This document shows, in pieces, positions 30,753-32,368 of a DNA stretch of 36,785 nt. Under the pieces are notes generated by a model. That model made no database searches, was not told where the DNA came from, and saw only the letters and a program-made list of their open reading frames with translations. The first letter of the stretch is position 1. Each line of letters opens with the position of its first letter. Origin of the DNA: Anaerolineae bacterium (lineage in GTDB: Bacteria; Chloroflexota; Anaerolineae; Aggregatilineales; Phototrophicaceae); NCBI GenBank assembly GCA_025454495.1, contig JALOOI010000013.1, positions 1 to 36,785 of the forward strand. The letters run 5' to 3'. The translations under genes were made by a program, and so were the position numbers.

Positions 30753-30794
30753 GCGGGCGGCTACCCTTTGCCGCCCGCCGCCCCCGCTTTATTT
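30753..30794. terminator. Bidirectional terminator between convergent genes
   Basis: GCGGGCGGC (30753-30761) and GCCGCCCGC (30770-30778) form a perfect 9-bp stem with an 8-nt loop. TTTATTT follows in the plus sense from 30788. It serves the small membrane protein gene and may also end the aminotransferase transcript. Confidence 0.6.
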
Positions 30795-32105
30795 GACCAG
30801 GGCCTGTAGCCCGGCGAAGAACTGCGCGGCCGCTTTTTCGGTCTTCTCCGGCGGCAGCGCATACGAGAAGCGCACCCACATCTCCCCGGCGCTGGAGAAA
30901 TGCACCCCCGGCACCACCGCGATCCCGAATTCCTCCGCCAGATAACTGCCCATGCCTTCGGAATTGTCGTAGCCGCCGGCCTGAATGTAGCGCGTCAGGT
31001 CCAGGAAAGCGTAGTAACCGTGCCCCATGATGAAAGGCACATCGGATTGTTCCAGCAGCCCGCGCAGCAGTTTGCGGCTGGCGGCAATGGGCTGCACCAG
31101 GCTGGCCGCGGCTTCGGTGAAGCCCTGTTCGCAGGCAGCGATGGCGATGGCCTGGGCATAATACGACGGCGTGACCCCGTGCGAAGCCTGGGTATTCACA
31201 TAATCCACCACTTTTTTGCTGGCCACCAGGTGCGCGCTGCGGATGTTGGACGCGCCCAGGCTCTTGGTGATGCCATCCAGCACCATCAGGCGCTCACGCT
31301 CCGCCGGGGTGAAGGCCAGCAGCACCCGGTTGATGTCGGTGGGCGTGCCGTCATCGGTGATGCGGTGGTACATCCAGTCGAACAGGACGAAGGGATAGCC
31401 CGCTTCCAGCGCCGTCTTCGCCAGCAAAATTTGCTCTTCCACGCTCAGCGTTAGCCCGGTGGGGTTATCCGGCGAGGTGATGACGATGCCGGCAATGCGG
31501 CGGCCATGTTCGGCGGCAAAGTCGGCGGTGGCTTTAATGCTCTCCGGCGTGTATTTCCAGCCCTGGGCCGGGTCGCCGGGGGCCCGCAGCACATTGAGGC
31601 CCATGCTGTAGGGGCCCCAGTTGTAGCTCACCCACGGCACGCGCGACACCACCAGCGCATCGCCCACGCGGCCGTTCCCCAGGGCGATCATGGCGGCATA
31701 GGCCTTGTTCAGCCCGTCGCGCCCGCCCTGGGTAAAGATGATGTTGCCGGGGCCAAAGCCGGTTTCGGCCGTAAAGCCCCAGTATTTTTCCGCCATCGTC
31801 ACCCGGTATTCCTGCGTCCCGAAGGGGTTATCGTAGCCGGTGCCGTGCGCCACCTGCATGTCGGCCGCCCGCAGCAGCAGCGCTTTCGGCACGCCCGGCA
31901 GGCTGGCCCCGCCGTCCCCCTGCGACGCATCGTACACCGGCGCATCTTGGCCATATTTCTCTTTGTATTTGGCCAGCGCGTTGCGGATGGTGAACATGCG
32001 CGACGGCTGGATGGGGGTCATGTGCGCCGGATAATCGTGCACCGGGATGAGGTGCGACGTTTCGACGGCAAATTCGGGGATGCTGAGATTGCCCTGCGTA
32101 TTCAA
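30789..32105 (-). CDS. PLP-dependent aminotransferase, fold type I (class I/II), controlled by an attenuator
   Basis: The 438-residue enzyme shows the class I/II aminotransferase signatures. ITSPDNPTG binds the PLP ring and substrate, VLFDWMYH carries the cofactor Asp and Tyr, and ITKSLG contains the lysine that forms the PLP Schiff base. VRFSY near the C-terminus holds the carboxylate-binding Arg. It should exchange an amino group between an amino acid and a 2-oxo acid; the exact substrate is not readable. The start is TTG 32105, with AGGAGAG six nt upstream. A leader with five Thr codons of 16 precedes it, so threonine supply or a related product is a plausible signal. Confidence 0.9.
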   Translation of the reverse strand: MNTQGNLSIPEFAVETSHLIPVHDYPAHMTPIQPSRMFTIRNALAKYKEKYGQDAPVYDASQGDGGASLPGVPKALLLRAADMQVAHGTGYDNPFGTQEYRVTMAEKYWGFTAETGFGPGNIIFTQGGRDGLNKAYAAMIALGNGRVGDALVVSRVPWVSYNWGPYSMGLNVLRAPGDPAQGWKYTPESIKATADFAAEHGRRIAGIVITSPDNPTGLTLSVEEQILLAKTALEAGYPFVLFDWMYHRITDDGTPTDINRVLLAFTPAERERLMVLDGITKSLGASNIRSAHLVASKKVVDYVNTQASHGVTPSYYAQAIAIAACEQGFTEAAASLVQPIAASRKLLRGLLEQSDVPFIMGHGYYAFLDLTRYIQAGGYDNSEGMGSYLAEEFGIAVVPGVHFSSAGEMWVRFSYALPPEKTEKAAAQFFAGLQALVK

Positions 32106-32130
32106 CGGAAGCTCTCCTGTCTATAAAACG

Positions 32131-32149
32131 AAAAAACCCCTGGCGGGGT
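32131..32149 (-). terminator. Terminator hairpin of the attenuator
   Basis: ACCCC-GCCA-GGGGT with six T directly after. The stem is short (5 bp) but the U-run is good. Confidence 0.65.
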
Positions 32150-32188
32150 GGCTGAAAAGTCGCAGACAAGACCACAGATACCCCGGTG

Positions 32189-32239
32189 TTAGCCTCGCCG
32201 GCGATTGGTATCGGTGGTGGTGATGGTCAGCATGAGCAT
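32189..32239 (-). CDS. Thr-rich 16-residue leader peptide
   Basis: ATG 32239 with GGCAGG 7 nt upstream encodes MLMLTITTTDTNRRRG and stops at TAA 32191-32189. Five of the 16 residues are Thr, all ACC, and three Arg follow. This composition recalls the threonine operon leader of enteric bacteria. Segment 1 of the attenuator overlaps codons 10-11. Confidence 0.65.
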   Translation of the reverse strand: MLMLTITTTDTNRRRG

Positions 32240-32273
32240 CGCATTGCCTGCCAGAAAGATGCAACAGGAGCTG

Positions 32274-32302
32274 ATTGTGACACGTCCGCGCCGGCCTGTC
32301 AA
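32274..32302 (-). promoter_or_regulatory. Promoter of the aminotransferase leader
   Basis: TTGACA (32302-32297), a 17-nt spacer and CACAAT (32279-32274) on the minus strand. The RNA should start about 28 nt before the leader ATG. Confidence 0.7.
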
Positions 32303-32368
32303 CCAGGATAACGCCTGGAATTCGCTGAGGAGTGTTTGTGCAACCTGCTAAATTCCGGCCGGTGGGGG

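Follow-up and report, generated by a model that had tools for sequence, protein, structure and literature searches.

The window, a 36,785-nt stretch of DNA from an Anaerolineae bacterium, carries on its minus strand a gene for a class I/II aminotransferase of the aspartate-aminotransferase-like type (positions 30789..32105, TTG start, Pfam PF00155). The DNA in front of this gene raises the question of whether a translated leader decides if the gene is transcribed, and which amino acids such a leader would report.

Layout of the leader region in the window

All parts of the candidate leader lie on the minus strand. A sigma-70-type promoter, TTGACA-17-CACAAT, was predicted from the sequence at 32274..32302 (-35 TTGACA at 32302-32297, a 17-nt spacer, -10 CACAAT at 32279-32274), and it is near-universal among the homologous leaders. 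The SD-like word GGCAGG (32247..32252), a candidate ribosome binding site, ends 7 nt 5' of the ATG of a 16-codon leader ORF at 32189..32239, which was assigned from the sequence together with 44 homologous leaders. The ORF encodes MLMLTITTTDTNRRRG followed by a stop codon, and has five ACC codons, at positions 5, 7, 8, 9 and 11. Folding and a self-versus-cross scan placed segment 1 at 32198..32219 (Thr codons 8-9, GATACC and CCGG), with segment 2 as its partner. Segment 2, CCGGGGTATCTGTG, was located by sequence and fold at 32173..32186. Segment 3, ACCCCG (32144..32149, fold and self-versus-cross), can pair either with segment 2, giving an antiterminator, or with segment 4. An intrinsic terminator, ACCCC-GCCA-GGGGT with a U run, was predicted at 32131..32149 by the fold, the self-versus-cross comparison and RNAalifold; the T run extends to 32131, and one of its six T's is the final stem base. 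The pairings in the window are GATACC/GGTATC for 1:2, CGGGGT/ACCCCG for 2:3 and ACCCC/GGGGT for 3:4. The promoter, ribosome site, ORF with five ACC codons, three pairings and U run had all been described in a sequence-only reading of this DNA, and each was found at exactly the bases given there.

The predicted energies in the window were -8.9 kcal/mol for the terminator, -17.1 kcal/mol for the antiterminator, and -12.0 kcal/mol for 1:2, or -16.0 kcal/mol when the entire ORF was included. The complete leader folded slightly better than its shuffles (z -1.57), which is not compelling for a single sequence, so relatives were needed to decide and conservation carries the case.

Upstream of the promoter, a conserved motif TTGCACAA (32336..32343, minus strand) starts 41 nt 5' of the -35 element, and the spacing pattern is exact in the window. 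The motif was found 40-42 nt 5' of the -35 element in 27 homologous leaders, and is a possible activator site. It is present too in some relatives that have no attenuator. In many homologous leaders TTGCACA stands immediately 5' of the -35 element. An inverted repeat TTGACA...TGTCACAA spans the -35 and -10 regions (32274-32302, minus strand) and is kept in most relatives; it could be a putative operator overlapping the promoter.

From this layout, the following mechanism can be proposed. RNA polymerase would start at the TTGACA promoter, and a ribosome would translate the 16-codon leader. When charged tRNA-Thr, and probably also tRNA-Asn, tRNA-Asp and tRNA-Met, is plentiful, the ribosome would reach the stop codon and cover segment 2, the 3:4 terminator would form, and transcription would end before the gene. 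When those tRNAs are uncharged, the ribosome would stall on the Thr-rich codons; as segment 1 consists of these same codons, segment 2 would be left free to pair with segment 3, and the gene would be transcribed. If there is no translation, 1:2 and 3:4 would both form and transcription would stop.

Conservation of the leader and its pairings in relatives

Among the 98 genomes searched in the same family, 56 had a homologue of the aminotransferase; in the order, 92 of 154 genomes had one. We examined the upstream DNA of all 56 family genes and of 26 homologues from other families. The results showed that a leader lies upstream of the aminotransferase in 44 of the 81 homologous genes with a readable upstream region: 42 of the 55 testable family genomes carry it and 13 do not, and two further leaders (L066 and L068) are from outside the family. 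Most leader-bearing genes encode proteins 58-73% identical to the aminotransferase of the window, and the leader DNA has mostly diverged beyond the GGGG/CCCC/GGGG cores. Examples of the leader peptides in relatives are MNSMNTTTDTMNRRSG, MRRTMNMTTDTDTLPPR, MLATNTTTNMDTIVIT and MRNNRMTDTTTNFLTSR. SD-like words were present in 32 of the 44 leaders, compared with 14.5 expected after shuffling. The Thr leader of L068, which belongs to another bacterial family, begins MLNTNTTTRRRR and has the hairpin CCTGGAG/CTCCAGG, with different letters in the same layout.

To evaluate the pairings without depending on a single alignment, we computed duplex energies for segments taken from one genome and for segments combined across genomes, and compared the two. 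The 2:3 duplex reached -19.4 kcal/mol within genomes versus -17.0 kcal/mol across them (z -5.2, 0 of 5000 permutations), and 3:4 gave z -3.9 (0 of 5000 permutations); in a diverse set of 34 sequences the values were z -4.1 and z -3.7, respectively. When segment 1 was taken as the entire stretch before segment 2, the 1:2 pairing was unsupported (z -1.4). In a 14-window scan, which involves multiple testing, 1:2 had a clear optimum with segment 1 lying 28-42 nt 5' of segment 2 (z -4.5, and -3.5 in the diverse set), an interval that coincides with the Thr codons. Windows nearer segment 2 paired with it worse than chance (z +3.4), which indicates avoidance. Shared base composition may lie behind the weaker signals that were seen farther 5' (p about 0.004-0.02). 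The support for 1:2 is weaker than that for 2:3 and 3:4, since it depends on the choice of the segment 1 window. The RNAalifold consensus was the terminator hairpin, in which two pairs are changed on both sides in some sequences. The sequence-only reading had placed the Thr triplet just before segment 1. The pairing scan ruled this out as a family-wide rule, because across the family segment 1 lies on the Thr codons, and in the window, too, the 1:2 stem enters the ACC codons.

The distance between the leader stop codon and segment 2 was also conserved. In 34 of 42 leaders the gap from the stop codon to segment 2 is 0-7 nt, so that a ribosome at the stop codon would cover segment 2, as the sequence-only reading had argued for the window; in one leader, segment 2 begins 1 nt before the stop codon ends. 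In the remaining seven (L006, L011, L017, L018, L034, L038 and L040), the ORF reads on across segment 2 to a stop codon 27-30 nt further on, close to the terminator, and five of them have Pro-Pro right at segment 2. These seven leaders fall outside the simple model; possibly, the passing ribosome masks segment 2.

These results bear on two readings in which the leader ORF would not govern termination. A simple leaky terminator upstream of the gene, accompanied by a chance ORF and free of ribosome control, would agree with a window fold that by itself stands only slightly above its shuffles, but many genera share the ORF, the Thr codons, the distance from stop codon to segment 2 and the rival pairings 2:3 and 1:2, which makes this reading very improbable. 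It is also quite unlikely that the leader affects how the aminotransferase is translated, through reinitiation or masking of its ribosome binding site, more than it affects termination: the TTG start of the gene is only 26 nt 3' of the U run, as such a reading would have it, but the GC-rich hairpin and U run are conserved and the leader stop codon is about 84 nt 5' of the gene start. The sequence-only reading had wished to be judged by whether the ORF, its Thr codons and the pairings, kept or changed by compensation, recur in relatives, and they do. By sequence comparison among genomes, the ORF, its codons, its geometry and the three pairings are well supported, whereas we infer that the ribosome stalls, that transcription terminates and that the enzyme supplies aspartate. 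A ribosome-mediated transcription attenuator that induces the aspartate-aminotransferase-like gene on starvation is highly likely on this evidence, and that the element is a real, conserved attenuator of the classical kind seems very probable.

The distribution of the leader fits a module that may have been gained or lost within the 5' UTR. In L052 and L060 the promoter is retained near the gene and the whole attenuator is absent, and several homologues from other families have similar promoters 60-80 nt 5' of the gene, in agreement with this idea. One genome of another family (G140) has two aminotransferase copies, L066 (G140:C193) with the attenuator and L067 (G140:C58) without it. The L066 protein is 68% identical to that of the window and nearer to it than the L067 copy is, and for this reason L066 was possibly transferred or mis-binned. 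We built a covariance model from 26 leaders and used it to search for further targets of the same leader; strong matches were found solely at the aminotransferase gene, at one place per genome. Of the weak extra matches that were read, all were chance or generic terminators except a leader of the Ile/Leu/Val type described below. No consistent pathway context emerged from the genes around the aminotransferase.

The aminotransferase and the amino acids that the leader would sense

The solved proteins nearest to the aminotransferase, both by sequence and by the fold of its AlphaFold model (pLDDT 84), are the aspartate aminotransferases of Thermus and Phormidium, at 20-25% identity. No NCBIfam equivalog reached its cut-off for the aminotransferase (best 97.9 bits). 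The PLP-binding Lys281 and the carboxylate-binding Arg412, both assigned by alignment, are invariant in its homologues, and an invariant Arg129 occupies the place of the substrate-binding Lys109 of the Thermus enzyme, which suggests an acidic substrate. Its predicted activity, from sequence and fold, is probably that of an aspartate aminotransferase. Further class I aminotransferases are encoded in the same genome, so it need not be the sole source of aspartate. Asn, Thr, Met and Ile are all made from aspartate. An enzyme of this type gives a metabolic reason for a Thr signal, and Thr, Asn, Asp and Met would suit it as control signals.

We then considered the composition of the leaders. Thr made up 24.5% of leader residues (start codon excluded, 44 leaders), versus 4.8% in the background and 5.7% in the other two frames, a figure that is somewhat inflated because the ORFs were picked partly by Thr content among few candidates per locus. 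The figures for Asn, Asp and Met, which were not used in that choice, are unaffected: Asn made up 10.3% of leader residues versus 2.9% in the background and Met 6.0% versus 1.8% (start codon excluded). The Thr maximum lies 8-13 codons 5' of segment 2. At codons 7-13 before segment 2, Thr accounted for 43%, Asn for 17%, Asp for 13% and Met for 9% (81% together), and Glu (0.3%), Ala (0.3%), Ser (0.7%) and Val (1.4%) were nearly absent. The enrichment in these control codons was 5.8-fold for Asn, 2.3-fold for Asp and 4.9-fold for Met; the corresponding binomial P values ignore relatedness and are usable as ranks only. Ile was not enriched. ACC or ACT made up 82% of the leader Thr codons versus 52% in the aminotransferase genes, a bias that would fit reading by one tRNA. 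These results indicate that Thr is in all likelihood the main signal, as the sequence-only reading had it from the window. The signal is probably wider than had been supposed there, taking in the over-represented Asn, Asp and Met as aspartate-family sensing. As the enzyme is nearest to the class I aspartate aminotransferases, we read the attenuator as sensing Thr first and probably other aspartate-family amino acids.

A second leader in the genome of the window gave a standard of comparison. L149 (G000:C345:5505-5637, minus strand), which had first surfaced as a weak covariance-model match, proved to be a different leader, encoding MHRQIIVNLLSLVLVLIIMSAS up to its stop codon, before a branched-chain-type aminotransferase that was named by sequence inspection, without a family search. 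Leaders rich in Ile, Leu and Val were found before the branched-chain aminotransferase homologue in about half of 26 relatives (loci L165-L167, L171, L173, L174, L177, L178 and L182-L185). They share with the Thr leader a short ORF, control codons, competing hairpins and a terminator directly before an aminotransferase gene, but both the codons and the hairpin sequence are different, and the Ile/Leu/Val leader appears to be a separate element. Leader composition and the products of the controlled enzyme thus correspond in these bacteria, and the case for the Thr leader gains strength from this. Among other genes, a crude filter applied to 21 relatives gave no convincing Thr-rich leader before homoserine dehydrogenase, and no conserved Trp leader was found before trpE in 11 genomes.

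Such comparisons bear on whether the Asn, Asp and Met codons are themselves read. Every one of the 44 leaders contains Thr, which is true of no other residue, and Thr is also by far the commonest, so an attenuator that senses threonine alone, with the Asn, Asp and Met codons as filler that keeps the leader A-rich and unstructured, is conceivable but rather doubtful: no enrichment, and in some cases depletion, was seen for the other residues with A-rich codons (Lys, Gln, Glu, His and Ser), in contrast to the increase in Asn, Asp and Met. The Ile/Leu/Val leaders fill 7-8 of their best 8 codons with sensed residues, and filler is therefore unnecessary. In the Thr leaders, the best 8 codons hold 3.6 sensed residues if only Thr is counted and 6.9 if Thr, Asn, Asp, Met and Ile are counted. 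The codons for Thr, Asn and Met all start with A, which would also be expected if the leader sensed the t6A modification of the tRNAs that read ANN codons, a modification made from threonine, and not their charging. This is extremely improbable, since enrichment is absent for Ile, Lys and Ser, which also have ANN codons, and present for Asp (GAY). We put the chances at about even that the leader peptide jointly reads Thr, Asn, Asp and Met and adjusts an aminotransferase supplying this family with aspartate. It would then be the first such system on an aspartate-type aminotransferase and, counted together with the Ile/Leu/Val leader, the first described from Chloroflexota.

Relation to known attenuators and meaning for the lineage

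In E. coli thrL (Rfam Thr_leader), a Thr-rich leader peptide is translated and ribosome stalling selects an antiterminator over the terminator. The leader described here resembles it in both its Thr-rich peptide and the proposed choice between antiterminator and terminator. However, thrL controls thrABC and contains Thr and Ile codons, whereas here the target is a lone aminotransferase and Ile is not enriched. A search of Rfam gave no match at the gathering score, and no leader family, Thr_leader included, among matches up to E 10. The leader-peptide attenuators of Actinobacteria and Firmicutes (PMC1262725, PMC2965389, PMC9413887) likewise combine a leader ORF with alternative hairpins outside Proteobacteria, but their targets are trp, cys, branched-chain and his genes. 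One of these studies found the threonine operons of Actinobacteria to be preceded by no conserved RNA regulatory structure (PMC1262725), and before its own case in Firmicutes, a report of 2010 knew of no leader-peptide system outside Proteobacteria and Actinobacteria (PMC2965389). In the literature searched, with subscription papers outside its scope, we found no leader-peptide system in Chloroflexi/Anaerolineae and none for an aspartate aminotransferase. The mechanism is classical; what appears to lack an earlier description in that literature is its phylum, its target and its mixed set of residues. The sequence-only reading had the impression that leader control of a single aminotransferase is unusual in such a bacterium, but the case is not isolated, given the Ile/Leu/Val leader in the same lineage.

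Classical attenuation is documented mainly in Proteobacteria, Actinobacteria and Firmicutes, and two targets in Chloroflexota suggest that it originated repeatedly. The related genomes, some with the promoter but without the attenuator, form a natural series on the gain and loss of such switches. If the mixed reading of Thr, Asn, Asp and Met is true, the leader would be a direct readout of the aspartate family, and it would give a likely role to a conserved, uncharacterised family of aminotransferases.
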